This document shows, in pieces, positions 2,192 through 46,956 of a stretch of 47,714 nt of DNA (position 1 is the first letter of the stretch; the number at the start of each line of letters is the position of its first letter). The stretch is from Candidatus Yanofskyibacteriota bacterium (GTDB lineage Bacteria; Patescibacteriota; Minisyncoccia; 2-02-FULL-40-12; GWA2-44-9). The position numbers and the translations under genes were made by a program. The notes beneath the pieces are model-generated. The model was not told the DNA's origin, did no database searches, and worked only from the letters and a program-made list of their open reading frames with translations. Location: assembly GCA_016181145.1 (NCBI GenBank), contig JACOZW010000051.1, forward strand, positions 1 to 47,714, read 5' to 3'.

Positions 2192-2402
2192 GTCGCTCAG
2201 CCCTAACCCTTCTCGCTCTCGGCTACTTTCTTCTCGGGACACGCTTGCAGACCCAGCGAGTCTGCTTCGCTATGTGAAGTCGCTGCTTTTGTAAAGAGCC
2301 CTTCGCTAAGAAGCGAAGGGTCTATGACAAATCATGCAAGCTAGCGACTTTAAATGTCCCTAGAAGACAGATAGCCTACGCTCGATTTGAGAGTTAGGGC
2401 TT
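2192..2402 (-). ncRNA. Putative structured RNA/hairpin element, family 2 (diverged copy)
   Basis: Same architecture as copies at 24381 and 37133: outer stem near GGCTATCTG, inner stem AGTCGCT/AGCGACT, TTTGTCA...ACAAAA hairpin, loop CGCTGG hairpin. Confidence 0.5.
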
Positions 2403-3726: not shown

Positions 3727-3903
3727 TTATCGGGGCTTACGCGTTTGACCAAGTTCGAGGCAAAATCGAGTACTGATTCGAGACGTACTACAGATACGGC
3801 GAGAATCAGGCGGAGATTTTAACGAAGAAATTGGTTAAACCCTTTAGGGCTTGAACTATGTTGAGCCCAAGATTTCAGGGCTCTGTAGTTCAAGCGCATA
3901 GAC
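3727..3903. other. Putative structured intergenic element (long interrupted stem plus hairpin)
   Basis: Nested pairings GTTTGACCAA/TTGGTTAAAC, TTCG/CGAA, AAAATC/GATTTT, CTGATTC/GAATCAG, CGTA/TACG; then GCTTGAACTA..GAGCCC/GGGCTC..TAGTTCAAGC. Confidence 0.5.
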
Positions 3904-6159: not shown

Positions 6160-6252
6160 TTGAGTTAAAAGTTCATAAAGTTTATAGAGTTCATAAAGTA
6201 GGAAATCCGACTCAAAAAAACTTTATAAACATTATAACTTTAAAAACTTTAT
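6160..6252. repeat. AT-rich inverted/tandem repeat element, copy 1 (TTCATAAAG/CTTTATAAA units)
   Basis: AGTTAAAAGTTCATAAAGTTTATAGAGTTCATAAAGT ... ACTTTATAAACATTATAACTTTAAAAACTTTATAAACT, filling a gene junction. Confidence 0.8.
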
Positions 6253-6881
6253 AAACTACTCCTCAGTTTTTCTATCGCTTCTCCAAAATTATCACTCTTA
6301 ATTATGTAGCTTCCGACAACTACTATCGATACTCCAGCCATCTTCAGCTTAGGTGCAGTCTCGGGAGTGATCCCACCATCAGCTATTATTACGATATCTG
6401 GATATGCTTTGCGAAAATCAGATATTATATTTATAACACCCTCCACAAACTCACCCCCCTGAAATCCAGGATGAACAGTCATAAATTGAATATAATCTAT
6501 TTTACCAATAAATTCTTTAATTTTATCCACTTCTGTCTCAGGATTTAAAACAAGTCCTACTTTTCTCTCATTTTTATGGATATCTTCAATTATAACATTC
6601 AAATTGACATCTGATTCCGCGTGAATAAAAAACCTATCGGCATGAGTCGAGAACCACTCTCTTATTACATCCTGAGGCCTCTGAACCATTAGATGTACAT
6701 CAAATTTCAAGGCCGATTCAAACCCCCTTAGTTCATCATAACCGTTGATAGTTTTATTAGGAACAAAAACGCCATCAGCTATATCAATATGGACCCTAGA
6801 GGCATAGGGTTCTATTCTAAGAGCCAGGTCTTTAAATTTAACCGAAGAATCCGTGAGAATTGCGGGGATGATTTCTACCAA
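6249..6881 (-). CDS. rpe: Ribulose-phosphate 3-epimerase
   Basis: PAIL, VHIDIADGVFVPN, DVHLMVQRP, MTVHPGFQGGEF, DGGITPETAPKL. Confidence 0.88.
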   Translation of the reverse strand: MVEIIPAILTDSSVKFKDLALRIEPYASRVHIDIADGVFVPNKTINGYDELRGFESALKFDVHLMVQRPQDVIREWFSTHADRFFIHAESDVNLNVIIEDIHKNERKVGLVLNPETEVDKIKEFIGKIDYIQFMTVHPGFQGGEFVEGVINIISDFRKAYPDIVIIADGGITPETAPKLKMAGVSIVVVGSYIIKSDNFGEAIEKLRSSL

Positions 6882-6885
6882 AACA

Positions 6886-7008
6886 AGTTAAAAGTTCATA
6901 AAGTTCATAAAGTTCATAAAGTAAGGAGTCTGGTCCAAGAAAACTTTATAAACATTATAACTTTAAGAACTTTATAAACATTATAACTTTAAGAACTTTA
7001 TAAACTAT
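6886..7008. repeat. AT-rich inverted/tandem repeat element, copy 2
   Basis: AGTTCATAAAGTTCATAAAGTTCATAAAGT ... (ACTTTATAAACATTATAACTTTAAGA)x2 ACTTTATAAACT, same orientation as copy 1. Confidence 0.8.
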
Positions 7009-7976
7009 TTCACCAAATTAGGCGGTGTTCTTCCCTCAAATGCTTCAATAATATTTTCAGCAGCCATTGAAGCCATTTTATTGCGGGTTTCCTCGGTTGC
7101 AGAAGCTATGTGGGGCGTAATTATGACATTGTCCAGATCTTTAAGTTCCGGCACTATGTCTGGCTCAAATTCAAAAACATCCAGCGCCGCCCCTCTAATA
7201 ACCTGCTCCTTCAATACTTTGGCGAGGGCCTTTTCATCAACTATCGGCCCACGCGATGTATTAACCAAATAAGCAGTTTTTTTCATTATTTTAAAACGGG
7301 CTTCGTTCATAAGATGATGGGTTGAATCTAATAATGGCACATGGATAGAGACAAAATCACAGTGAGGTAGCATATCATCTAATTTTTCTACGAATTGTGC
7401 TCCAAATTCTTTTTCAAAATCAGGATTAGGTTTTGGATCATTATACAAAACCTTCATTTCAAAGCCCTTAACTGCATGAAGGGCAACTCTAGAACCTATT
7501 CGTCCAAGACCCACTATTCCAAGGGTTTTACTAGACATATCAGTGCCCAAGAGAAGACTGGGACCCCAGGCCTTATATCGTCCGGCACGAGCAAAACGGT
7601 CCGCCTCACTTATTCTGTGGGCGATTGCAAGCATTAAAGCAAAAGTATGCTCAGCTACTGTATTAGTTAATACTCCAGGAGTATTAGTAACCATAAGGCC
7701 CTTCTTTTTTGCGGCATCTAGATCAATATTGTCAAATCCAACTGCATAGTTAGCAATTATTTTAAGCGTCGGTAAGCCGGCATCCATCACCTCACCATCA
7801 ATTTTGTCAGTTAGAATAGACAAAACCGCATCAGTACCCTTAATGCCCTCGAGCAATTCTTCTTTGGTTGCAGCCCTATTCTCGGCCTTATCGTTAATTA
7901 CAACTTCATAGCCCTTAGCCCTCAGAAGGCCTATTCCTATTTCCGGTATCGGACGCGTTACAAACACTCTAGACAT
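7005..7976 (-). CDS. D-isomer 2-hydroxyacid dehydrogenase (glyoxylate/hydroxypyruvate reductase-like)
   Basis: GIVGLGRIGSRVA, LVNTSRGPIVDEKAL, ITPHIASAT motifs. Confidence 0.88.
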   Translation of the reverse strand: MSRVFVTRPIPEIGIGLLRAKGYEVVINDKAENRAATKEELLEGIKGTDAVLSILTDKIDGEVMDAGLPTLKIIANYAVGFDNIDLDAAKKKGLMVTNTPGVLTNTVAEHTFALMLAIAHRISEADRFARAGRYKAWGPSLLLGTDMSSKTLGIVGLGRIGSRVALHAVKGFEMKVLYNDPKPNPDFEKEFGAQFVEKLDDMLPHCDFVSIHVPLLDSTHHLMNEARFKIMKKTAYLVNTSRGPIVDEKALAKVLKEQVIRGAALDVFEFEPDIVPELKDLDNVIITPHIASATEETRNKMASMAAENIIEAFEGRTPPNLVK

Positions 7977-10644: not shown

Positions 10645-12302
10645 TTGAATTGTCTGGTGTCATAGATCCGATAATTATCATTACGGAATATCAGCGGAAA
10701 ATGCTCCGAAAAGTATTTTTCATTTGCATTAAGGTCATTTATTTCCGTCGGACCAATTACAACATAACTGATATTATATTTTTTCAAAAGCTCACTAACA
10801 TCCACGCCTAGATACATTTCCCTCATATCAGCCTCTCTCGAAGAGTAGTTAAAACCAAAATTCCACGCCCAAGCTGTATAACCCATTAGTATTGGCCTTA
10901 AACCCCAGACCATTACAAAATGATTATGAGATGGGGCGGTAAGAAAAACAGCCAGGGAGTCTGTTTTTTCTCTTATTTCAAGACCAAGATTTATATCATC
11001 TGTACTCGTCATCATAAAATCATGTTTATCAACTTGGACTAGTCTCGTAAGCTCGGTAATCCCCGTAAGAGTTAGGATTAGAAATAATAATATTGCCATA
11101 ACCCTAAATATAAAATTCCTCTTGGCCCAAATACTAGCCAAAGCCATCGATACCGGCGCTGACAATATTAAATAAGACCACCAAAAAATTTTAGAATTGT
11201 CCCAGGCTATCGGCTGGAGAAGATACAGGTTTCCAACCGTAAAAATCATAAATGCGGAAATATATACCGCCCACCCTGAATAATTGATACTATTTCTCCA
11301 AAAATACAGACCTAAAATAGCCATGGGTAGCATAATCCCCCACAATAACGACCACATTTTAACCCAGTCAAAAAAATCACCTTTTACTGTATAGCCAGGG
11401 TTCCATTTTACAAATGAATTGTTTTCAATCCCGCCCCATATAAAAGTCAGATAAAGGACAGATGAAATTATTCCCGCAATCAGAACAAAATGCCAGAGAA
11501 TCCTCCATTTACTAAAGCTAAATAGACAAATTAAACCGGTGATTAGGAATACCGCCATAAAGCTGTGCGGATGGGCTATTGGGAGAACACCGGCTAGAAT
11601 TCCTGAAATTACTAATATCTTAGTTTTAATACTTTCGGCAAGATTATCTCTTAAAATCACATAGAGGACGCCGACTATAGCCCAGACGCCCAAAGTAACA
11701 CCGATAAGAAATGAGCGCTGTGGTATTAAAAGCCCTACTGCCATATTACCGGCGAACCACTGATAAATATCATATCGGCCGTAATCTATCGGCGGATATT
11801 TCAAAAATTCAAATGAAGGATTCCGCCACAATTCTTTCAAGAAATTAACAAATCCCGTTCCGGCAGAAAGAAAAAAAATAAAAACCGAAAGAACAGAAAG
11901 TTTTTTTGATTTAACCAGAAGGTAAAACAATAAATAAAGTCCAACCAATAGAGAAAAGGTTAAGAATATGGATGGCAATACGAAGGCATGCTTGAGCGGC
12001 ATTCCCAGCTTCATAAGCATGCCTGATATCAGATTTGTTAAGAATGGATAGGTAAATTTACCTCCGGCATACAGCGGATGGTAAGCGAACCAATCCTGGA
12101 GGCTTTTAAAGGCAAAGGTATTAGCTATTGAAATGTGTAAAGACCAATCGCTCCAAACATTAACATGACCGGCATACAAACCATCCGGCTTAAAATCCAA
12201 AATTTTCCAGAATACTATTGAAAAATAAGAACCAAGAGTTAAAATTAGAAATAGCAGATACCTGAAATGAGCCCTGATTGTTTTTGATAATAATTCAAAC
12301 AT
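10641..12302 (-). CDS. Polytopic membrane protein, probable GT-C-type glycosyltransferase
   Basis: Many TM segments, N-terminal loop with WSDWSLH; ORF track reaches 12353 but MFELLSK at 12302 is the likely start. Confidence 0.65.
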   Translation of the reverse strand: MFELLSKTIRAHFRYLLFLILTLGSYFSIVFWKILDFKPDGLYAGHVNVWSDWSLHISIANTFAFKSLQDWFAYHPLYAGGKFTYPFLTNLISGMLMKLGMPLKHAFVLPSIFLTFSLLVGLYLLFYLLVKSKKLSVLSVFIFFLSAGTGFVNFLKELWRNPSFEFLKYPPIDYGRYDIYQWFAGNMAVGLLIPQRSFLIGVTLGVWAIVGVLYVILRDNLAESIKTKILVISGILAGVLPIAHPHSFMAVFLITGLICLFSFSKWRILWHFVLIAGIISSVLYLTFIWGGIENNSFVKWNPGYTVKGDFFDWVKMWSLLWGIMLPMAILGLYFWRNSINYSGWAVYISAFMIFTVGNLYLLQPIAWDNSKIFWWSYLILSAPVSMALASIWAKRNFIFRVMAILLFLILTLTGITELTRLVQVDKHDFMMTSTDDINLGLEIREKTDSLAVFLTAPSHNHFVMVWGLRPILMGYTAWAWNFGFNYSSREADMREMYLGVDVSELLKKYNISYVVIGPTEINDLNANEKYFSEHFPLIFRNDNYRIYDTRQFN

Positions 12303-13731
12303 GAGAATAACGAATAATAAATTATACCTAATAATTATCCTCGCTTCTAGCATTTTAGTTCATTTTCTTTTTTTCGGACACCCTAACCAGGTTGTTTTTG
12401 ATGAAGTATGGTATGGAAGACACGTTAATGACTATATCAACAAAACCTTTCATTTTGACGGTCATCCCCCTCTTGGACGAATGACCATTGCCGGATTTGC
12501 AAAAGTTATGGACTATAAACCGGCCAATTCCTTCACTAATATCAGCGAGCAGTTCAATGACAAACAATATCTTATCTTACGATTTTTGCCGACCTTAGCT
12601 GGTGCCATTTTACCGCTTATAATTTATCTGATAATCCGTGAATTGGGACTGACTCCCTTTGCCGCATTTGCCGGAAGCATGTTAATGGTATTTGAGAATA
12701 GTTTTGTCGCTCAATCGCGCCTGCTATTGATGGATTCGTCTTTGATTCTATACGAGTTTACTTCTCTATTTTTCTATCTGCGCTATCGCAATCACAAGAA
12801 AATTTATATGCTGTTTCTGGCTGGTATATTCTCCGGCTTAGCCTTTGCGGTTAAATGGGTCGGCCTGTCTTTTGTTGCTCTTCCCGTCTTATTTGAGGGA
12901 CTCAACATGTTATCCGAAATGAAGAGAAAAGGAATATCAGTATTAAAATCATCAAAAGTATGGCTTACTTTCACGGCGCTGATTATCATTCCTTTTGCTG
13001 TGTATTTCTCGGCCGTAACCGCTTATTCCCTGATTTTAAATAAATCCGGCACAGGCGATGCCTTTATGAGTGCGGGTTACCAGAAGACATTACAAGGCAA
13101 TAATTACCAGAATGATCCAAGCCTTAAAACGCCAAGCATGTTCAGCAAGTTCACTGAGCTAAACAGGCAGATGTATGCAGTCAACCAAGCATTCACTGAG
13201 CTAAACAGGCAGATGTATGCAGTCAACCAAGCATTGACTGCCAGCCACCCCTATGCAAGCGGCTGGTATACCTGGCCCTTGATGCTCAGGCCTATTTATT
13301 ATTGGGTTAGCGGCAACGCCAGAATATACTTCATTGGCAATCCTGTAATTTGGTGGTCTGCAACCATAGCAGTATTGTATGGTCTGCGAATCATTATTTA
13401 TAACCTATGGCTAAAATTAAGAAGATATGACATATCGCCATCGCTTTCATCCGATAATATATCTGTACTTCTTGCAGGATACGCCCTCAATATGCTTCCT
13501 TTTATGGGCGTAAAGCGTGTCATGTTTCTTTATCATTATTTCGCCGCCTATATTTTTGCAGTACTTCTACTTGTTTATTTTATATCGCAACAAAAAAGCT
13601 CCAAACAAATCTTTGGAGCTTTACTCACAGTAAGCATTGTGGCTTTCATATTCTTCGCACCGCTGACCTATGGCCTCAACCTATCACCAAAAGCCTATGA
13701 GCTAAGGGTATGGTTTAGCTCGTGGAGGTAG
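12301..13731 (+). CDS. PMT/ArnT-like GT-C glycosyltransferase (protein O-mannosyltransferase family)
   Basis: FDEVWYGRHVNDYINKTFHFDGHPPLGR, multiple TMs, GVKRVMFLYHYF. Confidence 0.8.
   Translation: MRITNNKLYLIIILASSILVHFLFFGHPNQVVFDEVWYGRHVNDYINKTFHFDGHPPLGRMTIAGFAKVMDYKPANSFTNISEQFNDKQYLILRFLPTLAGAILPLIIYLIIRELGLTPFAAFAGSMLMVFENSFVAQSRLLLMDSSLILYEFTSLFFYLRYRNHKKIYMLFLAGIFSGLAFAVKWVGLSFVALPVLFEGLNMLSEMKRKGISVLKSSKVWLTFTALIIIPFAVYFSAVTAYSLILNKSGTGDAFMSAGYQKTLQGNNYQNDPSLKTPSMFSKFTELNRQMYAVNQAFTELNRQMYAVNQALTASHPYASGWYTWPLMLRPIYYWVSGNARIYFIGNPVIWWSATIAVLYGLRIIIYNLWLKLRRYDISPSLSSDNISVLLAGYALNMLPFMGVKRVMFLYHYFAAYIFAVLLLVYFISQQKSSKQIFGALLTVSIVAFIFFAPLTYGLNLSPKAYELRVWFSSWR
13150..13233 (+). repeat. 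Exact 2x42-bp in-frame tandem duplication
   Basis: (TTCACTGAGCTAAACAGGCAGATGTATGCAGTCAACCAAGCA)x2 = (FTELNRQMYAVNQA)x2. Confidence 0.97.
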
Positions 13732-14365: not shown

Positions 14366-14467
14366 GGTATTAATGTAAAATGCAAATATCAAAATGGAAA
14401 ATTATAATTCAAAATCTTAAAATTTTATAATTTTACACTGTCATTTTGCACTTTGATTTTTAAATTT

Positions 14468-14707
14468 TCAATTTTTTATATCGAGCAGTTCATCTATCTT
14501 CCCCTTATCAAATCCAACTACGATCTTACCGCCTATATCAAGAACCGGAACTCCCATCTGACCGCTTATTTTTATCATTTCTTCCTGCGCCTTCATATCT
14601 TCGGCGACATTAAAATTTTCAAAAGCAACTCCTTTTTCATCTAGATATGCCTTGGCCTTTTTACACCAGGGACATGTGGGGGTTGAGTATATTTTTACGG
14701 TAGTCAT
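14468..14707 (-). CDS. Glutaredoxin family protein
   Basis: MTTVKIYSTPTCPWCKKAKAYLDEKG (CPWC), GVPVLDIGGKIVVGFDKGKIDELL. Confidence 0.85.
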   Translation of the reverse strand: MTTVKIYSTPTCPWCKKAKAYLDEKGVAFENFNVAEDMKAQEEMIKISGQMGVPVLDIGGKIVVGFDKGKIDELLDIKN

Positions 14708-18437: not shown

Positions 18438-18604
18438 CAAGCGAAGGGTTATCTCAGACTCGGACCACATTCGGTTTCTTCCAGCGGAAACCAAATCTTA
18501 AGTACTCGGAAAAATTGCCCAGTACCTTCATTTAAGAAATAAAGTTGCTGGGACCAAGCTAATTTTTCCTGCGTATTTCCTCCCTAGAGATAACCCCTCG
18601 CTTG
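18438..18604 (-). ncRNA. Putative structured RNA/hairpin element, family 1 copy A
   Basis: 18-bp terminal stem CAAGCGARGGGTTATCTC/GAGATAACCCYTCGCTTG enclosing conserved TAGGGAGGAAATACGC ... GAGTCT (minus strand). Confidence 0.65.
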
Positions 18605-20391: not shown

Positions 20392-20756
20392 CTAGAAAAT
20401 CCCGTCGTTTTTGAGCTCTTCTAATATGTCCTGAGGAATGGCTATCTTTTTTCCAATCGGACTGATCCCTGGATATCGCCAAGCGGAGATTATTATCTTC
20501 TTATTCCCAACTTTTAACTTTTCACTTTTAACTTTTAACTTATCTTGATACATAACCCAAACCTCAGTAGGTTTTTTGGTATTAGTTGAGGGAGACATAA
20601 CTCCAATGGTATTTTCAGCAATTCCCTCCTCCACCCTCTTCGGGTTTCTTATAACTCTCTTAACCCTATCCGGAGATAAGCCATAAAAAAGCATCTTGCG
20701 GATGACATGGTTGGTCCAATGATATTTGGTATCTTTCTTGAGTGATTCGAAGTTCA
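20392..20756 (-). CDS. DUF4258-like small protein
   Basis: WTNHVIRKMLFYGLSPDRVKRVIRNPKRVEEG...VWVMYQ...IIISAWRYPG; likely start MNFESLKK at 20756, the ORF extension being repeat-derived. Confidence 0.5.
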
Positions 20757-20834
20757 TCCCGTTAGAAGTAGCCCCGCCGAGGTCCCCTTGGGACTCATTC
20801 GCTAGAGGCGAATGAGCGAGACTTCTAACGGGAT
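20757..20834 (-). repeat. Hairpin repeat family 7, copy 1 (REP-like)
   Basis: ATCCCGTTAGAAGT ... ACTTCTAACGGGAT enclosing two smaller hairpins; shared with 45379-45454. Confidence 0.85.
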
Positions 20835-20888
20835 TCATATTTATTAATCTACCAGTATATTTTCAATAATTCTAGCCATATTTTAAAT

Positions 20889-21969: not shown

Positions 21970-22312
21970 GCCCAAACCCTTTCCGTAGCATTTTCGAGAC
22001 CATCGCCACGATAGAAGTGAAGGGACTATACCCTAGGGAGGAAATATGTAGTTATCTTTTAAATAAAGAATGAGCTTACCCAATTCATTTACAGAACGTT
22101 TCGGAAGCCGACTGGGCTGGCTCGGAGAAGGTTCCCGTGCTTTAGCCGGGAATCTCTGTAGAGAGAGCAAAAACTCAGCAGAGTTTTATGCGATCTGTAA
22201 ATGAGTTGGGTAAGCGAGTTAACCCTGAGTCTGGGCGTAGTCTTTGGGCGAAACCTTGTCTATCCCGAAGCACCTGCCTGCCGGCAGGCCGAAAAAAATG
22301 ATGAGGAAAGTG
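21970..22312 (+). ncRNA. Putative structured RNA/hairpin element, family 1 copy D with outer module
   Basis: CATTTTCGAGACC..ACGATAGAAGTGAAGGGACTATACCC-TAGGGAGGAAATA ... GAGTCTGGGCGTAGTC..GTCTATCCCGAAGCAC..AATGATGAGGAAAG. Confidence 0.65.
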
Positions 22313-22330
22313 GTGTGCGATTGTTTTTAT

Positions 22331-22367
22331 AAACCAAAAACCCCTTTTCAGGGGTTTTTGGTTGAGA
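22331..22367 (-). terminator. Intrinsic terminator of the RRM gene
   Basis: AACCAAAAACCCCTTTTCAGGGGTTTTTGGTT. Confidence 0.8.
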
Positions 22368-23410: not shown

Positions 23411-23677
23411 TTCACCCTTTCCTCATCATTTTCTCAACCAATGCTCCGAGATAGACAAACTCATCGTTCAGGGACTATACCCAGACTCGGACCACATTCG
23501 GTTTCTTCCTGCGGAAACCGAATCTTAAGTACTCGGAAAAATTGTTACCATAAGAATGGTAAACCAAGCCAATTTTTCCTGCGTATTTCCTCCCTAGGGT
23601 ATAGTCCCTTCACTTCTATCGTGGTAATGGTTTCCCTGCCTGCCGGTAGGCAGGGAAAATAATTAGGAAAGGGTTCG
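23411..23677 (-). ncRNA. Putative structured RNA/hairpin element, family 1 copy B with outer module
   Basis: GGGACTATACCC/GGGTATAGTCCC stem with CAGACTCGGACC...GCGTATTTCCTCCCTA, nested in AACCCTTTCCT...AGGAAAGGGT arms. Confidence 0.65.
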
Positions 23678-24343
23678 CTATTGTTCGTTTTTACTTTGTG
23701 TATATGGTACTAGTCCCACAAACTCAAATGACTCTTTATCAAAAGAAAATTTTGTTAAACTGCCGGTCTCAACAGAAAAATCTTCGTGTTTATCGTGACT
23801 AGCTTTTGCCAAAACTGGCAGGATGGCTCGTAAGCAACCCCTGTGAGTTACAATGAGGATATTCTCACCCGCACTATTTTCTTCGGCTATTTCTTCCAGG
23901 ACATCAAACAATCTCCTCTCCATCTGTTGCCACGACTCACCATTTTCAGGAACAAAAGAATATCTTTCGTTTATATCCATTCCGGATAATTTATTAGCTA
24001 CCTCATCCCATGGAAGATCCCTCCATATTCCCCAGTCGCGTTCCTTCAAGCCATCTTTAACTTTAACCGACAAACCCAGTTCTTTGGCAATTACTTCTGC
24101 CGTCTGATGGGAGCGCCCCAATGGCGAAGTGTAAACATCGGTTACATTTATATTATTTTCTTTAAAATATCTGGCCATTGATCTTGCTTCATCCGTACCT
24201 CTTTCAGTCAATGGCGCGTCGTTCATGACCAGACATTCCGACCCTAATACATTACTTTCACTCTGACCGTGCCTGATGAACCAAAAAGAAACTTTGTCCG
24301 CATTATTCTTGACCCCCAATTTAGTTTTAATTCTGTTCAACAT
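23678..24343 (-). CDS. Histidine phosphatase family protein
   Basis: FWFIRHGQSESN, YTSPLGRSHQTAEVIA, ILIVTHRGCLRAIL. Confidence 0.92.
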   Translation of the reverse strand: MLNRIKTKLGVKNNADKVSFWFIRHGQSESNVLGSECLVMNDAPLTERGTDEARSMARYFKENNINVTDVYTSPLGRSHQTAEVIAKELGLSVKVKDGLKERDWGIWRDLPWDEVANKLSGMDINERYSFVPENGESWQQMERRLFDVLEEIAEENSAGENILIVTHRGCLRAILPVLAKASHDKHEDFSVETGSLTKFSFDKESFEFVGLVPYTQSKNEQ

Positions 24344-24380
24344 AAGTATGGATAGTTAGCAGAGCATACTAAATTTATTA

Positions 24381-24540
24381 AGCGCAGGCTATCTGCCTTT
24401 CGGGACCATCTAGTCGCCAGATTGATTGGTTTGTCAAAGGTCATTCCTTGACAAAATCTGGCGACGATCGAGTGAGTCTTGCCGCTGGAGCAAGACGAAC
24501 AGACGAACGCGTCCCGAAAGGCAGTGGCCGAGAGCGAGGA
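24381..24540 (+). ncRNA. Putative structured RNA/hairpin element, family 2
   Basis: CTGCCTTTCGGGAC/GTCCCGAAAGGCAG, GTCGCCAGATT/AATCTGGCGAC, TTTGTCAA/TTGACAAA, GTCTTGC-CGCTGGA-GCAAGAC. Confidence 0.7.
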
Positions 24541-24562
24541 AAAATTTAGAAGGATTGAGCAA

Positions 24563-24775
24563 CTACATCTTATCTTCCGAGCTTGAGAAGATACTTTTTA
24601 TCTTCTTGAGGATTTTTCTGCCTTCATAGGTGACGCAAACGAGAATAAGGCCTACGAATATTATGACTAATGGATAAAAGATGGACCAAAAACTTCCGGG
24701 GAAATAAATAATTCCCAAGTTGCGGAGCAAAAAAGCAAGACCAAAAACTATTACTATTAAACCGGATATATACAC
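24563..24775 (-). CDS. Small membrane protein (DUF5668/LiaF-TM-like)
   Basis: GLAFLLRNLGIIYFPGSFWSIFYPLVIIFVGLILV. Confidence 0.65.
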   Translation of the reverse strand: MYISGLIVIVFGLAFLLRNLGIIYFPGSFWSIFYPLVIIFVGLILVCVTYEGRKILKKIKSIFSSSEDKM

Positions 24776-37132: not shown

Positions 37133-37287
37133 TTTCTCTCAGCTATCTGCCTTTCAGGACCATCTAGTCTCCGGATTGATTGGTTTGTCAAAGGTCTTTC
37201 CTTGACAAAATCCGGAGACGATCGAGTGAGTCTTGCCGCTGGAGCAAGACGAACGCGTCCTGAAAGGCAGTAGCCGAGAGAAATAGT
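37133..37287 (+). ncRNA. Putative structured RNA/hairpin element, family 2
   Basis: CTGCCTTTCAGGAC/GTCCTGAAAGGCAG, GTCTCCGGATT/AATCCGGAGAC, same loops as 24381 copy with compensatory stem changes. Confidence 0.7.
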
Positions 37288-39940: not shown

Positions 39941-40393
39941 TTAGGCGCGCGACTTAAAATCCAAAGAAAGAGAGTTAATGCAATATCTCTGACCGCTAGC
40001 CGGAGTTCCATCTGGCATGTTTTTGGGTCCGTCCGGAAACACATGACCTAGATGAGAGCCGCATTTTTTACACAAGACTTCAGTCCTAGACATACCATGA
40101 CTGGAATCATCTTTTAATTCAATGTGTTCCCTATTAACCGGATCGGTGAAACTCGGCCAACCGGTACCAGAATCAAATTTAGTATCTGAAGAAAAAAGTT
40201 CCTGACCACAAGCTCCGCAGACATACATTCCCGCTTCTTTGTTCTTATAATACTTACCGGTAAAAGCCGCCTCCGTCCCCTTCTCCCTTAAAACTTTATA
40301 CTGCTCCGGGGTCAAGCAGGTTTTCCATTCTGATTCGGTTTTCGGTCCGCCAGCTGGCGGATTATCATTATTCATATAATTAGTGCTACTCAA
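39941..40393 (-). CDS. msrB: Peptide methionine-(R)-S-oxide reductase
   Basis: [46 protein letters not shown]. Confidence 0.95.
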
Positions 40394-40578
40394 AGACTAT
40401 ACCCAGACTCAGAGTTAATTAGCTTACCCAATTCATTTACAGATCGCATAAAACTCTGCTGAGTTTTTGCTCTCTCTCAGCCCAGTCGGCTTCCGAAACG
40501 TTCTGTAAATGAATTGGGTAAGCTCATTTTGATTTAAAAAATAACTGTGTATTTCCTCCCTAAGGTATAGTCTTTGAG
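40389..40578 (-). ncRNA. Putative structured RNA/hairpin element, family 1 copy C
   Basis: 15-bp stem CTCAAAGACTATACC/GGTATAGTCTTTGAG; inner 23-bp perfect stem AGCTTACCCAATTCATTTACAGA; conserved TAGGGAGGAAATA/GAGTCTG (minus). Confidence 0.7.
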
Positions 40579-40591
40579 CTTTTATTCTAAC

Positions 40592-43887: not shown

Positions 43888-45378
43888 TTAGCCCCTCTGT
43901 TCTGGCTGGCCACCGCGGATTTTTTTGTACTTTTCGGTATATTTATCGAGTATTTTTTCCACTTCTTCATTCGGAATTTCCAGTCTTAAAAGTTCGACTG
44001 CATGAATTGTGTCATAGATATCATTCTTATTTTCTATTTTATAAATAGCATCTCGCCACATAATAGCTTTTTCATATTCTTGCCTTGCCACTGCTTTTTT
44101 CTCAAGTTCACCGAACATCGCCATAAAACCTTCATAAACACCCCTCTCAACTCCGCCAGCCTCAAAAGTCCTTTCTTTGAACGGAATGCGCAAAACCCCC
44201 TGCCTTTCTTTGGCTATTTCATATATTTTACCGCTTCTTTTCCATTCAAATGCAGTAGAGACTATTTTTTCATAAAGATCCCGGGCACGTTCGACGGAAC
44301 TGGCATCAACATTAGGTATTCGCCGAACTATATCAAGGCATATATAGGCTCCCCGCTCTATCTCTTCTAGGCTCCACCAGGGCTTAGCTGAAGCCCACCA
44401 AAAATGATCGCTGGCCAGGGCGGCGTCCATCCTGGACCTGATTTCTCCAAAAAGAATGTGATTCTTATCAAGAGCATAGACAGACTTAAGGGACAGATTT
44501 ACCAAATCCCACTGCCATGTATGTATCTCATTTTCAGGATCTTTCCATGATAAGAACTGAACATTCCTATCAACATCCTCCTCACTGGAAGCCCAGGTTG
44601 ATTTTACCGGGGATACTTCCTCTATATCCTTATAAATCCCCATTAAGTCTGAAACTTGCACCAATTCAAAATCTTTTGATTCAAACATTTCAAACAGCAT
44701 GTTCTCAAGACCCGGCCTGTGATGACCAAAAGTCTCGCCGTCCATTCCGGTAACCAGATAACGGCCGCTGGCAAAATCTTCATGCATCGCTTCCTTTAAA
44801 GACTCGTAAGACCTTACTACTGCGCTCATAATTAAATTGCTGGGGCGCCTTTCCCTGAAAAAAGCCAGCATATCAGTCCCCTTTATTTTATATAATTTAT
44901 TGTAGTCGACTGATCCAGTTTTACCGGATTTAGCAATTTCATCGAGAATCATCCATTTAAATCCCATAGACTCGACTATTTTAGGCAAGCGCTCATCATA
45001 AGCCATCTCTGGCGGGAAAAAACCTATCGGTCTATATCCGTGATCAAAATAGTAATGAAGGGTTTCGTTATTCGTCTCTATCTGCCGGAAAATTTCTTCT
45101 TCCGTTAAAAAGGGTAACAAGGCATGAAATTTAGCCGAAGTTGTCAGCTCAAGACGACCTTCCTTAATAAGTTCTCGCAACATATCTATAATGTCGCCGT
45201 ATTGATATTTATCAAAAAGCTCGAGGAGTGAGCCATTTATATTCATGGTCAGGCGAACTTTCTTGTGTTTAGTGAGTCCGCGCAAAATCGGCCTGTAGCT
45301 TTGATTTACAACAGCCTCTAAAATGTCCGGCTGTTGGCCGGCCGGTTGGTATATGTGTAAAAAATTAGCCCACTTCAT
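43888..45378 (-). CDS. Glycoside hydrolase family 57 protein
   Basis: FLHIYQPAGQQ, GFFPPEMAYDERLPKIVESMGFKWMILDE, VTGMDGETFGHHRPG. Confidence 0.88.
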   Translation of the reverse strand: MKWANFLHIYQPAGQQPDILEAVVNQSYRPILRGLTKHKKVRLTMNINGSLLELFDKYQYGDIIDMLRELIKEGRLELTTSAKFHALLPFLTEEEIFRQIETNNETLHYYFDHGYRPIGFFPPEMAYDERLPKIVESMGFKWMILDEIAKSGKTGSVDYNKLYKIKGTDMLAFFRERRPSNLIMSAVVRSYESLKEAMHEDFASGRYLVTGMDGETFGHHRPGLENMLFEMFESKDFELVQVSDLMGIYKDIEEVSPVKSTWASSEEDVDRNVQFLSWKDPENEIHTWQWDLVNLSLKSVYALDKNHILFGEIRSRMDAALASDHFWWASAKPWWSLEEIERGAYICLDIVRRIPNVDASSVERARDLYEKIVSTAFEWKRSGKIYEIAKERQGVLRIPFKERTFEAGGVERGVYEGFMAMFGELEKKAVARQEYEKAIMWRDAIYKIENKNDIYDTIHAVELLRLEIPNEEVEKILDKYTEKYKKIRGGQPEQRG

Positions 45379-45454
45379 CCCGTTAGAAGTAGCCCCGCCA
45401 AGGTCCTTCGGACTCGTCCGCCTAAGGCGGACGAGCGAGACTTCTAACGGGATT
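45379..45454 (-). repeat. Hairpin repeat family 7, copy 2 (REP-like)
   Basis: ATCCCGTTAGAAGT/ACTTCTAACGGGAT terminal stem, GTCCGCCTTAGGCGGAC hairpin, directly abutting the GH57 ATG. Confidence 0.85.
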
Positions 45455-45459
45455 AATAA

Positions 45460-46956
45460 CTATTGAGATTCTTTATGGAACCTTAGTGCCATTTCAAAAA
45501 GTTTTACGTATTCCTGGGCTGATTTTTCCCATGAGAAATCTTTGGTCATTGCCCGCTTCATGAGCTTTTCCCATTCCTTCTTTTGGCGATAGAGTTCACT
45601 GGCTCTTATAATGGCGATGGTCAGAGAGAAAGGATCGTATTTATCAAAAACAAAGCCCGTCCCCTCTTCTTTCTCGGGAGTAAAATCTTCAACTGAGTCA
45701 GCTAGGCCACCAACCTTTCTGACGATAGGAATACAGCCGTATCGCATCGCCTCCATCTGAACAAGGCCGGATGGCTCAAAACGCGAAGGAATTAAAACCG
45801 CATCGGCTCCGCCAAAAATCATCCTGGGCAGTCGAGGATCGAATGAAAAGTGAGTTCCGACTCTATCAGGATATTTGAGCTTTAACTCTTCAAAATAAGT
45901 GCGGTAGCCAGGATTTCCCTCGCCAACGATAATGAATTGGAAATTTATATTTTCCATCAAAGAGCTGAGCATCTGGGTAAGGATATCGAAGCCCTTTTGT
46001 TCGTCCATGCGACCAACCATACCTACCACGAAGACATCACCAGAAGTTGTCGGAAGACCAAACTGTTTCTGAAGGGCAGCCTGATTTTCGAATCTTTTAC
46101 TGAGACTTTTCACGGAATAATTTACGGCTAAATCTTTGTCTGTCTCAGGGTTAAGAGATTCGGTATCAATGCCGTTCAAAACTCCAAAAAGACGGCTCTT
46201 TCTCTCATTGAGAAGCTTATCCTGGCCCTCACCAAACTCTTCGGTTAATATTTCGCGTGCATAGGTCGGAGAAACAGTATTGATGACATCAGCATACATA
46301 ATACCGCGCCGCATGCCGTTCAGTTTATTTGTTCTTGGGTCAAAGAAGTCACTAATCCGAGCCTGGCCCGCATCGTAATCCATCTCAGAAATATGCTTAG
46401 GATCAAACATCCCCTGATATCTTAAGTTATGGATAGAGAAAACTATAGGGATCTTAGACAAGACCGGATCATCTTTGTAGTCGGTGTGAACAAGATTGGG
46501 TATAAATCCGGTTTGCCAGTCAGAAGCGACAATGACATCGGGCTTCCATTCAGATTTTTTTATAAACTCAAGCGCGCCTTTAGCTAAGATTATCCAGCGA
46601 ATCGTATCGTCCGAGTATCCGTAAACATTGGCCCGCTTCTCGTAATATTCCATGTTTTCCAAAAAATAGTTAACTCCGCCACCGTCCGGATTTATGTAGC
46701 GGAGAACATTTGAGGCAAGGATACCGTGAGGATCTCGATCCCCGCTCTCAACCTCGATATTATTGAGTTCCGTTTCCAGGTGATATTTTTCCGTATCAAT
46801 AGTTGCATATTTAGGCGTCAAAACCCTGGCATCATGTCCAAGTTCGCGAAGAGCCTTAGGCAATGCGTGCATTACCTCGCCCAACCCCCCGACTTTTACA
46901 AAAGGTGCGGCTTCTGAAGCTACAAAAAGTATCTTTAATTTGGGACTATTTGGCAT
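45460..46956 (-). CDS. glgA: Glycogen/starch synthase (GT5)
   Basis: LKILFVASEAAPFVKVGGLGEVMHALPKAL, VFSIHNLRYQG, NGIDTESLNP, PSRFEPSGLVQMEAMRYGCIPIVRKVGGL. Confidence 0.95.
   Translation of the reverse strand: MPNSPKLKILFVASEAAPFVKVGGLGEVMHALPKALRELGHDARVLTPKYATIDTEKYHLETELNNIEVESGDRDPHGILASNVLRYINPDGGGVNYFLENMEYYEKRANVYGYSDDTIRWIILAKGALEFIKKSEWKPDVIVASDWQTGFIPNLVHTDYKDDPVLSKIPIVFSIHNLRYQGMFDPKHISEMDYDAGQARISDFFDPRTNKLNGMRRGIMYADVINTVSPTYAREILTEEFGEGQDKLLNERKSRLFGVLNGIDTESLNPETDKDLAVNYSVKSLSKRFENQAALQKQFGLPTTSGDVFVVGMVGRMDEQKGFDILTQMLSSLMENINFQFIIVGEGNPGYRTYFEELKLKYPDRVGTHFSFDPRLPRMIFGGADAVLIPSRFEPSGLVQMEAMRYGCIPIVRKVGGLADSVEDFTPEKEEGTGFVFDKYDPFSLTIAIIRASELYRQKKEWEKLMKRAMTKDFSWEKSAQEYVKLFEMALRFHKESQ

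Follow-up and report, generated by a model that had tools for sequence, protein, structure and literature searches.

The window, that is, the whole stretch of 47,714 nucleotides that was analysed, carries three copies of a folded repeat, here called A, B and C, and two diverged members that lie within another repeat, 'family 1' (table 1). All three copies were found where the sequence-only reading had placed them. The neighbouring genes are ordinary: a histidine phosphatase and a LiaF-like membrane gene, DoxX and phosphoglucose isomerase, and a zinc ribbon and ribosomal L25. Copies A and B share a 113-nt repeat (24388-24500 and 37142-37254) at 95% identity, and copy A has an 8-nt local duplication (GACGAACAGACGAAC). 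The outer stem P1 continues outward past the covariance model (CM) core in all three, and in copy B its pairing reaches the element ends. The P2 tip of the diverged copy C holds an additional palindrome, CCCTTCGC..GCGAAGGG. A coding reading was rejected, and the element does not belong to a longer conserved coding stretch: none of copies A, B and C has an open frame running through it, and indels separate homologues. The source genome (G000; 0.95 Mb, 68 contigs) holds at least three further copies, on contigs C8, C26 and C48, and two element fragments, on C50 and C51.

Table 1. Members of the element in the window, and structural parts located within copy A.
Feature	Position	Strand	Remarks
Copy A, whole	24381..24540	+	CM core 24396-24520; R2 111.4 bits, E 4.8e-32
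Copy B, whole	37133..37287	+	CM core 37150-37266; R2 126.8 bits, E 7.9e-37
Copy C, diverged	2192..2402	-	CM core 2231-2366; R2 73.6 bits, E 2.4e-20
Diverged member within 'family 1' repeat	23486..23598	-	R2 27.8 bits, E 3.5e-6
Diverged member within 'family 1' repeat	18459..18590	-	R2 18.7 bits, E 0.0023
P1 inner 5' arm CTTTCGGGAC	24397..24406	+	partner 24511-24520
P2 5' arm GTCGCCAGATT	24413..24423	+	partner 24455-24465
One-sided 7-nt bulge GATTGGT, conserved	24424..24430	+	family consensus GMWYGGU
P2 distal 5' arm TTGTCAA	24431..24437	+	partner 24448-24454
J2/3 GAGTGA	24470..24475	+	tandem G.A internal loop with GAA 24497-24499
P3 hairpin GTCTTGC-CGCTGGA-GCAAGAC	24476..24496	+	covariation tests

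The general plan of the fold is common to all copies. (i) The outer stem P1 is long, and is often lengthened by copy-specific pairing into the flanks. (ii) The second stem, P2, carries on its 5' strand, in every copy, a bulge of 7 nt that reads GATTGGT, GCTTGGT, GCATGGT or GCACGGT (GMWYGGU). This bulge, absent from the sequence-only reading, equals the P3 loop in constancy. The P2 tip is replaceable among copies. (iii) P3 is a hairpin of 6-12 bp with an 8-nt loop, YCGCNGGR, standing on a tandem G.A internal loop. The three stems meet in a three-way junction. The loop motif CGCTGG, proposed earlier as conserved, holds in all but its fourth base, which is free (CGCNGG). Stems are GC-rich in the GC-rich genome G004 and AT-rich in AT-rich genomes; the loops are identical. 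Within one related family (G033, G040, G042 and G030), a further hairpin with AGCCCAUUC/GAAUAAGAU sits inside the P2 bulge.

The base of P3 forms a U-GA/GA-A internal loop in which near-invariant G.A pairs lie beside a covarying U-A pair. Columns 152/179 are GA in 43 of the 48 aligned sequences, column 154 is A in 94% and column 178 is G in 87%. The U-A pair (columns 151/180) changes to C-G (36 versus 7 sequences), and a kink-turn at this position was dropped because of that covariation beside G.A. An extra covarying pair, C13-G142 in alignment columns (27 CG, 7 UA, 3 AU), joins two junction strands. Neither the P2 bulge nor J2/3 offers a consistent complement with which the P3 loop could pair. 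A TATAAT-containing motif (GTATAATNNTTC) recurs in the P2 apical loop of L024, L025, L026, L044, L056, L067, L167 and other loci; it is present in several families, is absent from the window's genus, and may represent a -10 box or a binding site.

Evidence for the fold comes from stability and from paired substitution. Folding z-scores of copies A, B and C against dinucleotide shuffles are -7.5, -9.8 and -7.4, and none of 200 shuffles was as stable as the native sequence for any of the three. The paired changes described between copies A and B are exact: CGGGAC/GTCCCG becomes CAGGAC/GTCCTG (one pair), and GTCGCCAGATT/AATCTGGCGAC becomes GTCTCCGGATT/AATCCGGAGAC (two pairs). The new stems of copy C, AGTCGCT/AGCGACT and GCAGAC-TCGCTGG-GTCTGC, were also verified. 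In a seed alignment of eight copies from two species, nine pairs show double-sided changes, versus 3.6 in shuffles. A later alignment of 48 matches has 35 structural pairs, and double-sided changes occur in all 35. It contains 478 double-changed cells versus 124.5 +/- 9.1 in shuffles, and its covariation score is 0.758 versus 0.211 shuffled, with slid controls at 0.153 or below. As this alignment was fitted to the structure, a tree-aware null was added (FastTree tree, Fitch counts, 20 simulations, APC-corrected G statistic). The maximum of all 20 simulations was exceeded by 21 of the 35 structural pairs and by no non-structural pair. Stem mismatches are G.T more often than A.C (65 versus 30, p = 0.0004), so the folding strand is the strand as written. 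Covariance models and alignments together bear out the proposal that the element is structured, with loops that are conserved and stems that change by compensation, as homologues throughout the phylum strongly prefer compensatory change. Both the structural conservation of the element and its dispersal are well supported.

Covariation of this kind could in principle be a product of mutation mechanics, with template switching or arm-to-arm correction changing both arms of a palindrome at the DNA level. Such upkeep would suit the outer P1 stems, which are perfect and copy-specific, the modest share of G.U in stems (5-7%), and the occurrence of near-identical copies with swapped hairpin tips. It does not account for the unpaired bulge, loop and tandem G.A, constant in two phyla, nor for the fixed side of the bulge or the excess of G.T over A.C, and as an explanation of the element it is highly improbable. 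Arm-to-arm correction, and not recognition, may maintain part of the pairing, a point against the recognition reading preferred below. Such upkeep is probably one reason why the outer P1 stems are perfect, but it cannot fix unpaired letters.

The element is widely and unevenly distributed. The covariance model R1 placed it in 19 of 45 genomes of the order, and R2 detected the family in 30 of 41. Copy numbers by R2, which are lower bounds given the strict filters used in scans of more than 40 genomes, are 37 in G033, 33 in both G030 and G035, and 24 in the small G042; related genomes of the order range from 0 to 37 copies. Within the window R2 scores four copies at 27.8-126.8 bits and the weakest at 18.7 bits, against a peak of 13.2 bits in a negative control of 49 kb from E. 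coli K-12; R2 E-values are rough, coming from a short calibration. All the genomes are drafts, and repeats lie at the ends of contigs such as G438:C11 and C12. When the phylum was scanned sparsely, the family also appeared in further Patescibacteria classes, each folding by the same plan. Matches also occur in 7 of 38 Omnitrophota genomes, and one metagenome-assembled genome (MAG), G437, has 21 copies. Omnitrophota copies in G441, G464, G465 and G469 retain GAGTGAG-P3-GAACG-like features on stems of their own, which makes contamination from Patescibacteria unlikely; in the G473 match (E = 2.9e-5) the fold was not seen. Phage and plasmid records were searched and gave no similar sequence. A single pattern match in a viral contig had no R2 match, and pattern matches in Opitutae, Myxococcales, Amycolatopsis, Pararoseomonas, Roseomonas and Dehalococcoidia were chance-like by R2 (none, or E = 0.1).

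Comparison of related genomes indicates how the copies are placed. They are intergenic and mostly at non-syntenic places. Synteny links the window's genes to G001:C20, G002:C1 and G003 (about 65-80% identity); the G001 copies, 82-92% identical, are on other contigs or off the syntenic site. At the site of copy B (37133), unrelated AT-rich palindromes fill the same gap in G001 and G003. The element can also persist in place, since G030 and G033 have two orthologous copies in common (about 80% identity). One of these has paired P2 changes, which may reflect either point compensation or conversion from another copy.

Neighbours outside the window are unrelated housekeeping genes, and every intergenic type is found, by crude ORF calls. 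Outside the window the flanking genes are not always on one strand: among the 57 loci with both neighbours called, on the same crude ORF calls, 41 are tandem, 10 convergent and 6 divergent. Unrelated neighbours and the full range of intergenic types argue against a cis-regulator of one pathway, and the locus-by-locus change of neighbours and varying orientation differ from what a riboswitch or cis-regulatory leader would show. A broader proposal is that the element is an RNA useful to its host, such as a 3'-UTR stabiliser, terminator or small regulatory RNA, spread by duplication and kept by selection on the transcript. RNA-like motifs conserved across phyla (tandem G.A, G.U tolerance) and the retention of orthologues in two species fit this proposal, as does the finding that 27 of 39 loci have a gene end facing the element on its 3' side. 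That bias is not repeated on the other side, however, and is weak in the distant set; neighbours are not common across lineages, both orientations and all intergenic types occur, and the variation from none to 37 copies among related genomes also speaks against a host function, which appears unlikely.

The element had been set apart, as 'family 2', from the 'family 1' repeats. This separation does not stand. The P2 bulge and P3 loop are common to both, and R2 matches both family-1 copies, so the two families are one class. The bulge is GCTTGGT in each family-1 member, and the P3 loop is CGCAGGAA in that at 23486..23598 and CGCTGGAA in the other. Nesting also occurs elsewhere: four of six G001 copies lie in the family-1 outer stem (GACTATACC...GGTATAGTC). 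In G437, three copies lie within a MITE that has the TIR TACATTGTTACATAAG and 5-bp duplications, ACTAC or ATTAG, and other copies lie within a second MITE family. Omnitrophota copies thus occur in at least two MITE families, and the shell around some of them has the TIR and target-site duplication of a MITE. A fourth copy of the first G437 MITE (C25:29107-29252) carries, instead of the core, a plain CCCCGCCGTAGGCGGGG tip. Loci L157 and L158 have flanks and P1 in common and differ in the P2 tip. From the nesting, the core-less MITE copy and this pair of loci, it follows that hairpin ends are where cores and tips are acquired, lost or swapped. The core might be a passenger inside larger palindromic MITEs mobilised by DDE transposases, its fold benefiting the transposon, for example by silencing or protecting it. 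The G437 shells and the nested G001 copies are what this would produce. Many copies, including all three in the window, nevertheless have no TIR/TSD shell recognisable on inspection. The same core also occupies different shells, and a sister MITE copy is without it; the passenger explanation is accordingly regarded as distinctly unlikely.

Two further observations concern nested repeats. At 22057-22246 and 40391-40585 the family-1 outer stem (GACTATACC..GGTATAGTC) encloses a different core (AATGAGCTTACCCAATTCATTTACAG..CTGTAAATGAGTTGGGTAAGC); these are one shell with exchanged cores. Locus L007 (G000:C50:2937) is a family-1/family-2 chimera joined at the P3 loop (CGCTGGATCAAGACGAAG), and is either a recombination product or a misassembly.

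The preferred reading, given about an even chance, is a non-autonomous mobile element of about 120-250 nt whose folded single strand, RNA or single-stranded DNA (ssDNA), is recognised in trans. The conserved fold, dispersed copies, nesting and tip exchange that are observed point to a trans-acting reader, and some protein or reaction probably reads the fold. The putative factor would recognise folded RNA or, during replication or transfer, folded ssDNA. It would copy or insert the element, by preference into or next to existing palindromes. Because the folded strand would be what is recognised, stems could drift while pairing stays, and the bulge, loop and G.A motif could not. Such a factor need not be encoded in every host genome. 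Copies that are otherwise nearly identical still have different P1 sequences, an unexpected pattern if one transposase bound the ends, and this counts against the mobile-element reading. Inspection of Patescibacteria copies also recognised no target-site duplication around them, a second point against it. A more tentative suggestion, possible rather than probable, is a new class of mobile element that is defined by a conserved tertiary-like fold, is common to Patescibacteria and Omnitrophota, would be recognised by its factor as a folded strand, and is inserted at or into hairpins. The class would be marked by a three-way junction in RNA or ssDNA, the GMWYGGU bulge, the YCGCNGGR loop and tandem G.A, without defining sequence or terminal repeats.

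Two candidate mobilisers were rejected, as co-occurrence shows no association of either with the element. Y1 transposase (PF01797) is absent from the element-carrying genomes G000, G002, G004, G035, G040 and G042; it occurs in 24 of 45 genomes, in a pattern that does not follow the element. Reverse transcriptase (PF00078) is absent from the element-carrying G000, G016 and G023, an absence that is not absolute since G000 is 92% complete. That these genomes carry the element without either enzyme weighs against the mobile-element reading.

The element family is previously uncatalogued. With Rfam 15 the window has no match at gathering thresholds, and 24300-24600 has none up to E = 10. Ten diverged relatives gave only six sub-threshold Rfam matches (five microRNA families and one frameshift site), the best with E = 1.5e-4 and 40.5 bits versus a gathering score of 149. 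The window contains no tRNA or tmRNA, and no integron attC core (GTTRRRY/RYYYAAC) was noticed by eye. A search of the open-access literature found no description of the element.

As far as is known, small palindromic repeats of bacteria are lineage-restricted and recognised by sequence. Small non-autonomous mobile repeats of this kind include ERIC/RU-1, YPAL/RU-2, RUP, Correia/NEMIS, the Caulobacter intergenic repeats and the Rickettsia palindromic elements (PMC2229807). The present element resembles the ERIC/RUP type in being short, intergenic, multi-copy, hairpin-forming and mostly non-coding; it differs in its three-way junction and in having a fixed bulge, loop and G.A across families and across two phyla on almost free stems. 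REPs are 20-40 bp long and fall into two super-families tagged GTAG or CGTC (PMC3733652), and REP/BIME repeats are paired with RAYT (Y1) transposases (PMC2817692, PMC3733652). They too are folded palindromes, often in inverted pairs, as seen here at L113 in G033 and L067 in G042, whereas the present element is larger, branched and does not track PF01797. Inverted, BIME-like copies about 40-110 nt apart occur at L113 (3177-3305(-)/3411-3574(+)), L067 and L179 (G438:C11). Intergenic repeats with base-pair compensation on Borrelia plasmids have been argued to be RNA-level motifs (PMC2674063). They share intergenic position and compensated base pairs with the present element, but are limited to those plasmids and described as stem loops. 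Double-hairpin elements of fungal mitochondria are nested, mobile palindromes with fast-changing stems. The likeness to them lies in nested mobile palindromes, the difference in the type of genome; no motif in common is known. What is new relative to these nearest kinds is a cross-phylum fold with free stem sequence.

Patescibacteria have streamlined genomes (about 0.5-1 Mb), yet some hold 20-37 copies of the element. That two phyla keep the fold while its stem sequence is free implies a specific reader. Its discovery would bring to light either a new transposition route or a new RNA-binding system, in bacteria of a lineage that is hard to work with, and it would also account for a repeat class that breaks assemblies. 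The covariance model is ready for annotation of the element.

Other repeats were observed in the window. A third hairpin repeat, with outer stem CCCTTTCC..ATTTTC / GAAAATGATGAGGAAAGGG, occurs at 1-212, where the contig start lies in it, and at 21980-22335 and 23415-23690; it encloses family-1 repeats at 22000-22250 and 23480-23640. A repeated hairpin, ATCCCGTTAGAAGT..ACTTCTAACGGGAT, at 20753-20845 and 45374-45464 has the inner stem ACTCATTCGCTAGAGGCGAATGAG versus ACTCGTCCGCCTAAGGCGGACGAG, a strong change that is apparently compensated. Two dispersed intergenic repeats, 14371-14474 and 3733-3842, are about 70-94% identical to many places in G001-G003, and the first is palindromic, judged by matches on both strands. 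Duplicated AT-rich short-period arrays (AACTTTATAAACATTATAACTTT) at 6163-6258 and 6886-7016 flank the ORF 6249-6881, and a perfect 42-bp tandem duplication (13150-13233) lies inside the ORF 12301-13731.
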